A stretch of DNA of 38,085 nucleotides from a virus, in IMG/VR virus record IMGVR_UViG_3300042987_000838, positions 1 to 38,085 of that record; one strand, given 5' to 3'. Numbering within the stretch: the first letter of the stretch is position 1; each line of letters starts with the position of its first letter. This document shows positions 853-10,973 of the stretch, piece after piece. The notes beneath the pieces are model-generated. The model did not search any database and was not told the origin of the DNA. It was given only the letters and a program-made list of their open reading frames with translations. The position numbers were made by a program, and so were the translations under genes.

Positions 853-1062
853 TTAGGTCTGCTCGCCACGGCGCGGACCCGTGACATCGCGGAAGCGCAG
901 GTCAACTATTTTCCGAACCGCTTCGCGTCCTTCGATGCGAGCAATCTCGGTTTCAAGTTCGTTGGTCACGGCCTCGAGGTCTTCGAGCGCGGAACGCACG
1001 CGGCGCTGAACGACAGCGCGGGCGCGGAACAGGTTGGCGAGGATTTCGTCGTTTGTTTTCAT
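853..1062 (-). CDS. Hypothetical 69-residue helical protein
   Basis: The start ATG at 1062 overlaps the stop of the DnaB gene in an ATGA junction, which fixes this start against a longer open frame reaching 1344. The protein is highly charged and almost entirely helix-forming, with many Arg/Glu pairs (RARAVVQRRVRSALEDLE) typical of a small coiled coil. It has no recognisable domain. Translational coupling to the helicase suggests co-expression with replication functions, which is inference only. The next 75 bases downstream (778-852) hold no gene I can support. Confidence 0.7.
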   Translation of the reverse strand: MKTNDEILANLFRARAVVQRRVRSALEDLEAVTNELETEIARIEGREAVRKIVDLRFRDVTGPRRGEQT

Positions 1063-2405
1063 TTCGTGGCTGGATGAAAGGTTGCGGTTGCCCGCGTGAA
1101 ATAAAAGCTCTGCGCTGCGGTGCCGTCGTCGCGGCCTTTGGCTTGGATGACGTTGGTGAAGAAACGCGGCCGGTCGGCCTCGAAGTCGGTGTCCCGCTGC
1201 TGCTGGCCCGTGATCGCGTCCTCGTTCGGACGGTGGAGCAGGATGACCTTGTCGGCGTCCTCCTCGACGCTGCCGCTGTCCTTGAGGTCGGTGACGTGTG
1301 GCTCGCGGTTGCCATCCTTCGCGCTCTCGCGATTCAACTGCCAAAGCATGACGACGAGGATGTCCAGCTCCCGCGCAAGGCGCTTAAGCGTCTTCGTGAC
1401 GAGCCCGCACGCGTTCACCTTCTCGCCGCCGCCCTTCGCCTCGTAAATCTCCTTCACGAGCCCGCCGTGATCGACGAAAAGGACGTCCAGTCCGCTGCTG
1501 GCGTGGAGCGCCCGCGCACGCGCCTCGATGCGAGCAAGCGACGAGTCGCGACTTGAAACCGTGATGTTGCGGCCGCGAAGTTCGACGAGCGCCTTGCGGA
1601 TGTCTGCCTGCGAGGCTGGGTGCTCGGTGTGAACGCGCCGAAGGCCGACGCCGGCGAGCGAAGCCGCGATTTGCAGCGGAACCTTGTGCGGCGCGACTTC
1701 GAGCGTGACGTAGTAGCAACGCCGCCCAGCGTTCGCGAGGTGCGTCAGGATCGGCCGAGCAAGCGAGGATTTGCCCGAGGACGAACGGCCCGCGATGACG
1801 ACCAACTGTCCGCGCTCCATCTCGCCGAAGCGTTGATTGAGGACCGGCCAAGGGAACGGCATGAGCTCCTTCCGCTCGGCGCCGGCGATCTTCTGCTCGA
1901 GTTCCGTTTGCGCCTGCTGGACGAGCTCGTCCCAGTTCGCCTCGGCGTCGGAGTCCGATCCGGCCGCGATGTTAAGCAACTCACGCGCACCGTTGCCGAT
2001 GACCTCGGAGATCGGATCGGTCGCCTCGGCCTCCTGCTGGACGCGCTCGGCTAAATTCTGCGCGATGCGGATCGCGTCACGCGCCACGGCGATGCGCTGG
2101 ACCCGCTCGAGGTAATACTTCGCGTTGAGCGCGATCGGGATTCCGGTCGTGAGCCCGACGATGTAAAGATGCCCGCCGGCGGAGTCGAACCGCTGCCGGG
2201 CGATGAGTTCGGCGTAAAGCACGTCCTCGGTTAGCGCCATGCCCGCGGCCATCATTTCGCGCAGCGTGTCGAAGATGACTTGATGCCGCGTATCGTGAAA
2301 GGCGCGACGACTCAAGTTCGCGCCGAGCATCGCTTGCAGCGTGCGGCCATCGTCGACGAGCGCCGCGGCGAGGAGCAGCCGTTCGTGGTCAAGGTTGGCG
2401 ATCAT
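1059..2405 (-). CDS. DnaB-like replicative DNA helicase
   Basis: This 448-residue protein has the full DnaB plan. An N-terminal helical domain (about 1-110, including AQ/ALLLAAALVDDG-type packing) is joined by a linker to a RecA-fold helicase domain. Walker A is GRSSSGKSS at 206-214. Walker B is LDVLFVDHGG at 306-315. The H3/H4 region begins VVMLWQLNRE at 351 and ends in SVEEDADKVILLHR, the usual DnaB signature. DnaB hexamers unwind the fork 5'-3' on the lagging-strand template. No primase domain is present, and none is seen elsewhere, so host DnaG is presumably recruited. The gene overlaps the upstream initiator gene by ATGA. Confidence 0.95.
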   Translation of the reverse strand: MIANLDHERLLLAAALVDDGRTLQAMLGANLSRRAFHDTRHQVIFDTLREMMAAGMALTEDVLYAELIARQRFDSAGGHLYIVGLTTGIPIALNAKYYLERVQRIAVARDAIRIAQNLAERVQQEAEATDPISEVIGNGARELLNIAAGSDSDAEANWDELVQQAQTELEQKIAGAERKELMPFPWPVLNQRFGEMERGQLVVIAGRSSSGKSSLARPILTHLANAGRRCYYVTLEVAPHKVPLQIAASLAGVGLRRVHTEHPASQADIRKALVELRGRNITVSSRDSSLARIEARARALHASSGLDVLFVDHGGLVKEIYEAKGGGEKVNACGLVTKTLKRLARELDILVVMLWQLNRESAKDGNREPHVTDLKDSGSVEEDADKVILLHRPNEDAITGQQQRDTDFEADRPRFFTNVIQAKGRDDGTAAQSFYFTRATATFHPATK

Positions 2406-3091
2406 AGGTACGCCTTGACGACGGTTCCAGTTGCCTCAATCGGCCGCTCGCAACGCAGCAGCCAATTCACGAACCGTCGGCGGCTTGGAAGTTTGCGGTG
2501 GGCTTCGCACCACGACTTCATTCGCGCAAACTCGCGTTCAACGTCGATGCCGGCATACGCCTTGTCGGTTTTGATGATTGCGAGCCAAGCTGCATCCGCA
2601 TCCGGCGCGGACTCATCCGCGCAGCCCTGTTCCTTTCCTATTCCTATTCCTTTCCTTTCCTTTCCCTTCCTTTCCGTTTGGTCTCCGCTTTGGTTCTGCT
2701 TTGGTTCTGGTTTGGTTGTGCTTTGGTTGTGCTTCGCTCCGTTGGCGCGGACGGCTTTCAGTTTTGCTTCGCTCCTGCTTAAACCTCCGAGGCGACCTGC
2801 TTCGCGCTTTGCTTTCACTTCGCTTTCCTTGTCAACAGGATAAGCCCATATCTCAAGCGTGTCTCCGTCCCATTTCCAGAGCGCAGATTCGATCGACACT
2901 TCGGCTTGCGTGACGCGGGCGAGTTGCTGCCACTTTCGGTCCGCCCAGCCTTTGCAATCGGCAATGCGTCCACCGTTTTCCTGTCCGACGCAGTAACGAA
3001 GCAAGCAAAGCCACGTTGCGCGTGCTGTTGGTTCTGATCCCACGAACTCCTCCGAGTCGAGAGTCGTGGTTTCGATGTTAAGCCAGTTCAT
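2402..3091 (-). CDS. Phage replication initiator / helicase-loader protein
   Basis: A 229-residue protein directly upstream of and coupled to DnaB. Residues 1-85 look like a winged-helix DNA-binding domain (with a CVGQENGGRIADC stretch). Residues 96-155 are a low-complexity basic linker rich in K, N, Q, E and G, and the last 60 residues form a second helical domain resembling DnaD/DnaT-type loaders. The position next to DnaB and the two-domain-plus-linker plan match lambda O / DnaD-like initiators. The linker DNA carries four 11-bp tandem repeats and a polypurine tract (see repeats). The start ATG at 3091 lacks a good Shine-Dalgarno and is preceded by a strongly structured leader. The exact family is not certain. 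Confidence 0.75.
   Translation of the reverse strand: MNWLNIETTTLDSEEFVGSEPTARATWLCLLRYCVGQENGGRIADCKGWADRKWQQLARVTQAEVSIESALWKWDGDTLEIWAYPVDKESEVKAKREAGRLGGLSRSEAKLKAVRANGAKHNQSTTKPEPKQNQSGDQTERKGKERKGIGIGKEQGCADESAPDADAAWLAIIKTDKAYAGIDVEREFARMKSWCEAHRKLPSRRRFVNWLLRCERPIEATGTVVKAYL
2630..2675. repeat. Polypurine/polypyrimidine tract in initiator gene
   Basis: The plus strand is 46 bases of C and T, broken only by A at 2640 and 2646, so the minus (coding) strand is nearly all purine. It encodes a Lys/Glu/Gly-rich linker. It lies immediately beside the 11-bp iterons. Asymmetric tracts of this type flank the iterons in oriLambda, where they help unwinding. It may serve the same role here. Confidence 0.85.
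2687..2730. repeat. Four 11-bp tandem iterons, candidate replication origin
   Basis: On the plus strand four units follow each other without gaps: GCTTTGGTTCT (2687-2697), the same again (2698-2708), GGTTTGGTTGT (2709-2719) and GCTTTGGTTGT (2720-2730). Partial copies flank them. Because 11 is not a multiple of 3, the repeat cannot be kept for the sake of the protein sequence. It repeats as DNA, one copy per helical turn. Position inside the initiator gene linker is the arrangement of oriLambda. Function as an origin is inferred. Confidence 0.7.
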
Positions 3092-3231
3092 GTTCGTAAA
3101 GTAAGACCCCGGCCCGCCTGCGGTGAGACTTGCCCCGAGACAACGACGAACTCGGTGCAGGCGCAGACGGCCGGGGAAATTGATTGATGACTGACATGAT
3201 CGACGAGTCTCACCTCGCCTCCTGTCGCTGA
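3092..3231 (-). promoter_or_regulatory. Structured leader, pseudoknot-type RNA candidate
   Basis: The leader of the initiator gene holds perfect inverted repeats: 3107-3114 with 3169-3176 (8 bp, CCCCGGCC), extended by 3115-3121 with 3157-3163 (7 bp), an inner hairpin 3135-3139 with 3151-3155 (5 bp), and 3122-3130 with 3206-3214 (9 bp, GGTGAGACT). The last pair joins the loop of the first stem to upstream sequence, which is pseudoknot geometry. The outer stem ends 15 bases before the start codon, and no U-run follows it, so translational control is more likely than termination. A 39-codon frame (3197-3078) overlaps it and is an alternative explanation. Confidence 0.6.
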
Positions 3232-3732
3232 CTAAACTTCAGGCGGTTCCTCGCGCAAGTCGTTTCTCGCGACGTCGAGCGGATCGCCGTGCGTAGCAAT
3301 TGAAACCCAGACGCCCGGCCGCTGACCCTCGACGACGTAGCCCTTGCAGGCGATGATCGTCGTGACCTGCGAATCGTCGCGCCAGACGCGGCCGTCCTTG
3401 GTGATGACGTCGAGGACGAGCTTCGTGAGGTTGTCTATATCCGGCTTTCCGGTCGGCTCCTTTGGTGCTTTCTCCTTGAGCCCGTGCTTGCCGAAATGCG
3501 CCTTCGGTCGAGGCATGAAGAAGGTCATCGTCACGCGTACTGGCCCGAGCGTCGGCTCTGCGCCGATCTCGTCGAGCTTTTGCTTCAGCGCAAAGTAGAC
3601 CTGCTCCTTCCATTCGTCAGCCGTTCCGGGATTGTACATCCTCGCCGAGTATTTGTTGCCGAAGCGTTGAGCGAACGCCCGCGCCCTCGGTTGGCCTTTC
3701 GGTAGGCCGTAGACTTGAAAGCTGATCGTCAT
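3232..3732 (-). CDS. rusA: RusA-family Holliday junction resolvase
   Basis: A 166-residue protein of the RusA fold, a dimeric endonuclease that cuts Holliday junctions and other branched DNA. The signature KPDIDNLTKLVLDVI is at about 97-110, followed by VWRDDSQV at 117-123. These supply the conserved metal-binding acidic residues (D98, D100, D119/D120) and Lys104. The N-terminal GLPKGQPRAR strand is also family-typical. The length is slightly above the 120-residue E. coli protein because of a loop near 75-95. The gene follows the mini-HTH gene in an ATGA overlap. It likely clears recombination or replication junctions before packaging, alongside the RecT-like/exonuclease pair. Confidence 0.92.
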   Translation of the reverse strand: MTISFQVYGLPKGQPRARAFAQRFGNKYSARMYNPGTADEWKEQVYFALKQKLDEIGAEPTLGPVRVTMTFFMPRPKAHFGKHGLKEKAPKEPTGKPDIDNLTKLVLDVITKDGRVWRDDSQVTTIIACKGYVVEGQRPGVWVSIATHGDPLDVARNDLREEPPEV

Positions 3733-3953
3733 AGTCCGACCGTGGCTGATTGTTTCGAGGCGCGATACTTCGCGAGGAGAGCAAGCTCCTCGGCGTTCAG
3801 ATAAACGCGGCGGTATCCCATCGCGTCGAGGTGTCGGTAGATCGTTCCGGACTGGAAGCCCATCGCCGCGCCGATCGAGGTCGGCTTGACGTAGCCTTGG
3901 AGCATCTTGTCGATCAGCTCGATCTGGTGCGGCGTTACGCGTGGACGTTTCAT
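3729..3953 (-). CDS. Small helix-turn-helix protein
   Basis: A 74-residue protein consisting of one HTH (residues about 18-50: SIGAAMGFQSGTIYRHLDAMG) and a short C-terminal helix containing EELALLAKYR. This suggests a minimal DNA-binding regulator. Its plan closely matches the 63-residue protein at 7350-7541, which has the same G-x-x-P start of the HTH, a G(Y/F)-x-x-(V/I)Y turn and the same E-x-x-LL-x-K-x-R tail, so the two are probable paralogues. It is coupled by ATGA overlaps to both neighbours. Its target is unknown; the AACCG dyads near terS are one candidate. Confidence 0.75.
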   Translation of the reverse strand: MKRPRVTPHQIELIDKMLQGYVKPTSIGAAMGFQSGTIYRHLDAMGYRRVYLNAEELALLAKYRASKQSATVGL

Positions 3954-4123
3954 CGGATGCGGACGGGCGCTGATCGGAGGGTTTCGCGCTCGATGCGGTT
4001 CGCGAGGAAATGTCGGAAGCCGCGGTCGATGTCCTTGTAGAGATGGGCGAAGGGAACCTCGCCTCCGGCTTTCTTTTTGCGACGCGGCTTGTGCGTGAGT
4101 TTTGAGTAAATGGTTTTCGTCAT
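3950..4123 (-). CDS. Small basic hypothetical protein
   Basis: A 57-residue protein starting at the ATG at 4123, chosen because it overlaps the upstream stop in an ATGA junction. It is strongly basic, with a RRKKKAGG cluster near the N terminus and several Arg residues at the C terminus. This charge suits a small nucleic-acid-binding protein. A central segment VPFAHLYKDIDRGFRHFL may form a helix. No family is recognised. Confidence 0.65.
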   Translation of the reverse strand: MTKTIYSKLTHKPRRKKKAGGEVPFAHLYKDIDRGFRHFLANRIERETLRSAPVRIR

Positions 4124-4314
4124 GATTTGATGTTCAGGAATGTTTTCGTCTCTTCGCGGAGGTCTTCTGCGTCGCGGAACGTCCGCGGCCTGCACCAGCA
4201 GCGCAGCAGCCGCTCGCATTTCTCAACGTGCTCCTCGAGTTCGGCGCGCTCGGTTTCGAGTTCGCGCAGGCGCTCCATGAGCGAGCGGAGCCACTCGGTT
4301 TTAAAATCGTTCAC
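4120..4314 (-). CDS. Small coiled-coil hypothetical protein
   Basis: A 64-residue protein starting at the GTG at 4314, which overlaps the upstream stop as GTGA. A longer open frame to 4515 would run deep into the neighbour and is not favoured. Residues 8-40 form a clear heptad-like helix (LRSLMERLRELETERAELEE) followed by a Cys-containing segment CERLLRCWC. No function is assigned. It is one link in a chain of five small genes coupled by 4-nt overlaps. Confidence 0.65.
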   Translation of the reverse strand: MNDFKTEWLRSLMERLRELETERAELEEHVEKCERLLRCWCRPRTFRDAEDLREETKTFLNIKS

Positions 4315-10771: not shown

Positions 10772-10973
10772 TCTTCACCAGATCATCAACAAAGCACTTC
10801 GCCTCGAAGAGCGAGCAGAGGCACTCCCGTGCGCTCAATGCCATCTCGCCGCGCTCAAAGCCTCCTTTGCTGTAGACTGAATAGCTTCGGCCTCTAACGT
10901 CTTCATCTTTTAGCTGCACCATATCGAACGAGGTGATGATGTAGCCTCGGTAGTTGCGGATCGTCGTTTTCAT
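10755..10973 (-). CDS. First gene of the early unit, hypothetical
   Basis: A 72-residue protein beginning at the ATG at 10973. I prefer this start to a longer frame reaching 11093 because the leader motif CAACAACGACAA, seen before several other genes here, sits directly upstream. The protein has a strand-rich N terminus (YRGYIITSFDMVQ), a basic turn, then a helix with three Cys (LSARECLCSLFEAKC). No family is recognised. As first gene of the unit it is a candidate early host-interaction factor (inference). Confidence 0.72.
   Translation of the reverse strand: MKTTIRNYRGYIITSFDMVQLKDEDVRGRSYSVYSKGGFERGEMALSARECLCSLFEAKCFVDDLVKKEVAS

Follow-up and report, generated by a model that had tools for sequence, protein, structure and literature searches.

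The gene for a candidate replication initiator in this phage carries an array of 11-bp iterons that runs directly into a purine tract, and array and tract together probably constitute the phage replication origin, located inside its own initiator gene in the manner of ori-lambda. The window, i.e. the whole stretch of DNA analysed, is a 38-kb virus record from IMG/VR (38,085 nt; the record may be incomplete), and the features discussed are collected in Table 1. We describe repeats at the DNA level, their conservation and position, the predicted layout of the encoded protein and the gene context, and we infer from these that replication starts at the array and tract. An earlier note on this DNA had read the linker-coding part of the gene as oriLambda-like, and this reading is supported by conservation within the clade, a layout found family-wide in all three reading frames, a winged-helix protein, a disordered linker and a helicase-type neighbour. 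The GC-skew minimum, proposed in the same note as a marker of the origin, did not bear it out: the skew is weak and the cumulative minimum lies at position 10,925, away from the array.

Table 1. Coordinates of the features in the window, with strand and supporting evidence
Feature	Position	Strand	Evidence
DnaB-type replicative helicase	1059..2405	-	Pfam DnaB_C 9e-39, DnaB N 4e-12; PHROG 19 1e-58
Replication initiator candidate, 229 aa	2402..3091	-	ORF, AlphaFold model, relatives, BFVD neighbours
Purine tract, GGAAA-type 5-bp period, candidate unwinding element	2630..2675	-	TRF, tract length, stability, rare codons
Iteron array, six head-to-tail 11-bp units	2674..2739	-	TRF, synonymous-recoding test, aligned relatives, third-position conservation
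Pseudoknotted RNA leader candidate, before the initiator start, outside the origin itself	3103..3225	-	Fold z -2.5; model R1 17.7 bits; covariation in relatives

The four contiguous 11-bp units described previously are present letter for letter at 2687-2730, with plus-strand sequences GCTTTGGTTCT (2687-2697 and 2698-2708), GGTTTGGTTGT (2709-2719) and GCTTTGGTTGT (2720-2730), and the tandem-repeat search suggested at that time identified a repeat of period 11 at 2677-2734 (TRF; 5.2 copies, 89% match). These four strong units are flanked by one weaker unit at each end, and as both are conserved in the aligned relatives, the array comprises six units. On the coding strand the unit consensus is approximately RRNCMAAGCNN, and the last unit (RRACCNAACGG) adjoins the tract without a spacer. 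The array spans 66 bp or 22 codons, encoding residues ~118-139 of the initiator candidate, and because this is a whole number of codons, gain or loss of a single 11-bp unit would shift the reading frame. The period-11 score is 35.5 at the array, and no other site in the 38 kb exceeds 10.5.

That the repeat exists at the level of DNA and not of protein, as had been claimed, follows from the failure of any tested synonymous recoding to reproduce the array: the period-11 score was reached by none of 20,000 synonymous resamplings of the peptide using the phage's own codon usage, the repeat score for any period of 7-24 by none of 4,000 such resamplings, and the repeat score by none of 5,000 within-gene codon permutations. 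In an ungapped comparison of six genes of the 11-bp type, peptide identity in the array was 0.56, with nucleotide and third-position identities of 0.75 each, versus 0.69 (peptide), 0.67 (nucleotide) and 0.46 (third position) in the N-domain; third-position identity stayed at 0.46-0.49 across the N-domain and the following helix. The 11-bp clade thus keeps the period and its phase to the tract with a third-position identity above that of the peptide, in line with the expectation that the unit would be kept while the peptide drifts, and peptide-level repetition as the cause is ruled out by the synonymous recoding and the third-position identity. With only a disordered linker encoded by the array, the DNA would be free for selection as a binding site and the peptide free to drift.

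The run of 46 almost pure C/T bases reported alongside the repeats was recovered as well, with 44 of the 46 bases being pyrimidines on the plus strand; TRF assigns it 8.8 copies of its 5-bp period, and it is by far the longest C/T tract in the window, scoring 36 against 19 for the runner-up. It encodes residues 140-154 using rare codons (AGG, 4% of the arginine codons in the phage, and ATA, ~4% of the isoleucine codons), and its purine richness was reached in none of 200,000 synonymous resamplings. With a G+C content of ~41% versus ~62% for the genome, the tract is purine-rich and not strictly A/T-rich, and in duplex instability the 100-bp window at 2629-2728 reaches the 99.6th percentile of the 38 kb. 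Most loci of the family are similar, in that the 100-bp window over array and tract belongs to the least stable 5% of its locus in 26 of 42 clusters, as against none of the 42 for an N-domain control window. Three further relatives (L113, L116 and L123) keep the 11-bp iterons, but where the others have the purine tract they carry GTAATA repeats, and only in these three is the tract A/T-rich; this replacement fits a role in melting better than a specific purine function.

The AlphaFold model of the initiator candidate (mean pLDDT 75.5) consists of a winged-helix N-domain (residues ~1-85, pLDDT 90-98), a long helix up to residue 117, a disordered linker (121-160, pLDDT below 50) and a helical C-domain (163-213). 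The same organisation emerged from AlphaFold2 models of 46 relatives: the winged-helix N-domain and the long helix after it (together residues 1-117) are modelled with confidence, residues 121-160 form a disordered linker, and the C-domain is helical. The predicted linker coincides with the array and purine tract. The window protein is covered by no family in Pfam or NCBIfam, and was without a match in the PDB, either by Foldseek at E <= 0.001 or by sequence search, so that no solved structural relative can be named. Its structural neighbours in BFVD are DUF1376, replisome organizer and Lin1244-like proteins (E values 1.6e-5 to 3e-3). Weak matches to a 'replication initiation protein' PHROG were found for 16 of the 46 relatives (phrog_3926; best 2e-6, located in the N-part where seen), and a few have matches to further PHROGs (replication-initiation, O-like or primosomal), the listed ones lying in the linker and C-part; the C-domain of some family members matches replication-initiation PHROGs. 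Membership of an initiator family lacking a Pfam or NCBIfam model would be the best explanation for the candidate.

The end of the initiator candidate overlaps the start of the directly downstream dnaB gene by 4 bp, and genes for RusA, a RecE-type exonuclease and RecT are located upstream. In the relatives, all immediately neighbouring genes to which a name could be given encode DnaB, a DnaC-like loader or a primase-helicase; some loci yielded a more distant ORF or no family. When the DnaB of the window was used as tblastn query, a downstream match was obtained in only 16 of 74 relatives, with the others carrying a loader or primase-helicase where nameable.

The search for relatives, by tblastn and pattern searches, yielded 83 distinct genes forming 42 clusters at 85% N-domain identity. 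They are mostly from phages, including three Akkermansia phages and IMG/VR contigs, together with seven genome contigs; the bacterial genomes are mainly Verrucomicrobiota, with four of the seven contigs assigned to Verrucomicrobia, Verrucomicrobiia or Akkermansia, and the others to Planctomycetota, Lentisphaerae and a Clostridiales bin. Repeats in the linker DNA exceeded within-gene synonymous permutations at p<=0.01 in 33 of the 42 clusters, compared to two for control segments in the N-domain and five for the C-part; nine clusters miss this threshold and four fit no site class. In almost every cluster the repeats run up to the tract, lying immediately 5' of a purine tract with a short period, and the sites found at this same place in the linker are of several types: 11-bp direct repeats (CCAAGC/CAAAGC), 12-bp direct repeats (AAACCCAACG), AACC...GGTT dyads (of the form AACC-N(4-8)-GGTT), AGCTT units and GGCAT/TGCC units. 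The 12-bp arrays, which are in frame, vary in copy number between close relatives. The word AACCCAACG is read in all three frames in the linkers of the relatives, and the junction at which ...AAC meets GGAAAGGAAAGG likewise recurs in all three frames; only the iterons carry this frame argument, since in the tract a 5-bp period gives the same cyclic pentapeptide in any frame. In one branch (L023-L034 and L008) the sites are inverted and not direct repeats, consisting of AACC-N-ACGTYGG-TT dyads followed by TTCTGCGAAAGCGGAAGGAGAAGG or close variants thereof, which are conserved across clusters.

Site type tends to go with the N-domain and not with the C-domain. In label permutations, which ignore descent, 25 of 47 pairs from the same N-domain family shared their site type (11.9 expected, p 0.001), and the association was also seen when the C-domains differ (p 0.007), whereas the C-domain family showed none (p 0.36). 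We regard the link as a tendency, as the N-domain family of the window mixes direct and dyad sites: the window's N-domain is more than 70% identical to that of relatives with AACC-type dyads instead of 11-bp direct repeats, so that the arrangement is not determined by resemblance between N-domains alone. Similar N-domains are combined with several unrelated types of C-domain, the junction lying near the purine tract, a pattern which suggests recombination at the linker.

If array and tract are the origin, the winged-helix N-domain would bind the 11-bp units, with several molecules arranged head to tail, and the bound complex would strain the purine tract beside it, a strand-asymmetric and weakly paired stretch that adjoins the last unit. 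The tract would then open, and the C-domain would deliver the DnaB helicase encoded by the next gene.

We have weighed this origin against three other explanations. The array could be a binding site, for the encoded protein or another phage regulator, that serves mainly for control: an intragenic operator repressing its own gene or keeping transcription out of the helicase gene, with the origin elsewhere, which we regard as unlikely. Conservation at the DNA level and a winged-helix N-domain would fit any specific binding site, and the SPP1 initiator gp38 binds two distant sites (PMC6316719), but an operator would be expected to have a promoter nearby, and a consensus scan (the only search made) of 2300-4300 found none of the sigma-70 type. 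An operator also gives no role to a regular neighbouring tract of low duplex stability, and no second array was found anywhere in the 38-kb record by TRF or the repeat-score scan.

Action of tract and repeats in RNA or transcription, as an R-loop, a rare-codon translational pause or an internal ribosome-binding site, would be consistent with the purine-rich coding strand (and hence mRNA) and with the rare AGG and ATA codons, and an R-loop is compatible with origin function and could even be part of it; as a replacement for a protein-bound origin we consider it quite improbable, because it leaves the conserved repeats beside the tract unexplained, GTAATA repeats can take the place of the purine tract in relatives, and no stable fold was found for the array strand. 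It is harder still to credit that replication slippage in a weakly constrained linker left the repeats behind, where only a charged, repetitive and disordered peptide matters. The linkers are predicted to be disordered and the 12-bp in-frame arrays do vary in copy number, but each 11-bp slip would shift the frame, rare codons maintain the tract, and the array surpasses the N-domain in conservation at synonymous positions. Slippage alone is contradicted by this third-position conservation and by the single DNA word kept in three frames. An origin inside the initiator gene is the reading we retain.

Upstream of the initiator candidate, the gap at 3092-3231 contains a strong hairpin and a U-rich run on the strand of the initiator gene. 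The conserved leader found at this place in relatives is ~110 nt long and consists of a small hairpin, the loop of which pairs (7-9 bp, with compensatory changes) with a bulge of a long GC-rich stem, which is followed by the U-rich run ending shortly before the start codon. A pattern search detected such leaders in 23 viral contigs, and the complement of loop and bulge is kept in nearly all of 30 distinct leaders, the exceptions being L121 and L024, in which the longest helix is another one. Exchange of partners shortened the helices, from a mean of 7.2 to one of 5.9, with all 300 exchanges giving a lower mean than that observed. A smaller leader set was aligned, as MAFFT over all leader RNAs had misplaced stems; in nine sequences, 18 of 33 pairs change on both sides, including four in the pseudoknot, with 99.3% of cells paired, versus 0-4 such pairs in slid controls. 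Besides the window (3092-3231, minus strand), leaders are located in L004 (3881-3989), L023 (2382-2492), L057 (2387-2496) and L060 (2385-2490), and also in L076, L080, L113, L116, L121, L123, L125 and others, ~22-38 nt upstream of genes for initiators of this family, DUF1376 proteins, another initiator-like family and HNH or HNH-like proteins. Searches of Rfam gave no match for the leader at gathering thresholds, with only implausible miRNA, snoRNA and enteric sRNA families below threshold, and the RNA leader model had no match in five host genomes and two matches in 289 genomes from the same phylum as one of these hosts. Our guess is that the leader acts on initiator expression, as an attenuator or a regulated terminator.

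The same RNA leader precedes initiator-like genes with unrelated N-domains (L112, L119, L121, L125, L127, L128 and L129), and the linkers of these contain short repeats followed by a short-period tract of the AGGATA or CTTCAGT type. From such sequences, the linker layout of repeats followed by a tract may be general.

Taken together, these features would fit, though we hold this only tentatively and rather doubt it as a whole, an unrecognised initiator family centred on the Verrucomicrobiota, in which the winged-helix domain and its in-gene sites form a cassette swapped among C-domains, the sites switch between 11-bp, 12-bp and dyad forms in place, and a shared pseudoknotted RNA leader sets expression of these and unrelated initiators. 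Phage origins are rarely known outside a few model hosts, and here the sequence of ~80 related genes shows a candidate, since what the protein requires of the code is distinguishable from what the DNA site requires. Joint change of initiator and site can be followed in this family as in a natural experiment, as the units differ in length, orientation and number but keep their position and the tract, and the family offers a direct test of the purine tract as unwinding element. With relatives in three Akkermansia phages, it also supplies a candidate origin for replicating plasmids in Verrucomicrobiota. In published reads of Akkermansia muciniphila YL44 induced with mitomycin, coverage over the prophages is tent-shaped (PMC8008629).

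Finally, we compared the arrangement with known systems. Lambda O and ori-lambda share with it the central location of iterons within the initiator gene, a tract of special composition alongside and a helicase partner gene next door. As in ori-lambda, the repeats lie in the linker-coding part of the initiator gene, to which the encoded protein would bind (codons ~118-139, predicted linker 121-160), and a helicase or loader gene, here dnaB, follows directly downstream. The lambda iterons are 19 bp long and lie beside an A/T-rich tract (PMC3985674, PMC7466680), and their copy number varies, with four in lambda and six in Stx phages, adding 13 residues (PMC7466680), whereas the direct units are 11 bp here and 12 bp or dyads in relatives, next to a tract that is purine-rich in the window. 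The window protein was without a match to O in Pfam or the O-like PHROGs, and O-like phrog_678 was matched by three of 46 relatives, in the C-part of L064, the one listed. In phage SPP1, direct repeats within gene 38 (oriL) are bound by its product gp38, and the phage encodes a DnaB-family helicase (PMC6316719), an arrangement resembling that proposed here; SPP1 differs in its protein family, a second origin (oriR) and A/T-rich unwinding elements, with one array found in our record. The Rep protein of pSK41, a plasmid and not a phage initiator, has a winged-helix N-domain of ~120 residues that binds four boxes central in the rep gene, an origin-encoded linker that is dispensable as protein, and a C-domain that differs between genera (PMC5703833). 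The RepA N-domain structures 4pql, 4pt7, 4pta and 5kbj match at Z 3.4-4.0, too low to claim homology, and Pfam gave no RepA_N domain (PF06970) match for the window protein, with none listed among 15 members scanned. The DUF1376, Lin1244-like and 'replisome organizer' phage proteins are the best structural neighbours among viral models, and some DUF1376 genes carry the same RNA leader as the initiator candidate, although Pfam gave no sequence-level match to DUF1376 for the window protein. By analogy, the logic of the mechanism would be that of lambda O, SPP1 gp38 and pSK41 Rep (PMC3985674, PMC7466680, PMC6316719, PMC5703833). An origin within the initiator gene is of a known kind; the candidate described here differs in its protein family, its 11-bp unit and its purine tract, and in that site formats are exchanged at a fixed place within one family.
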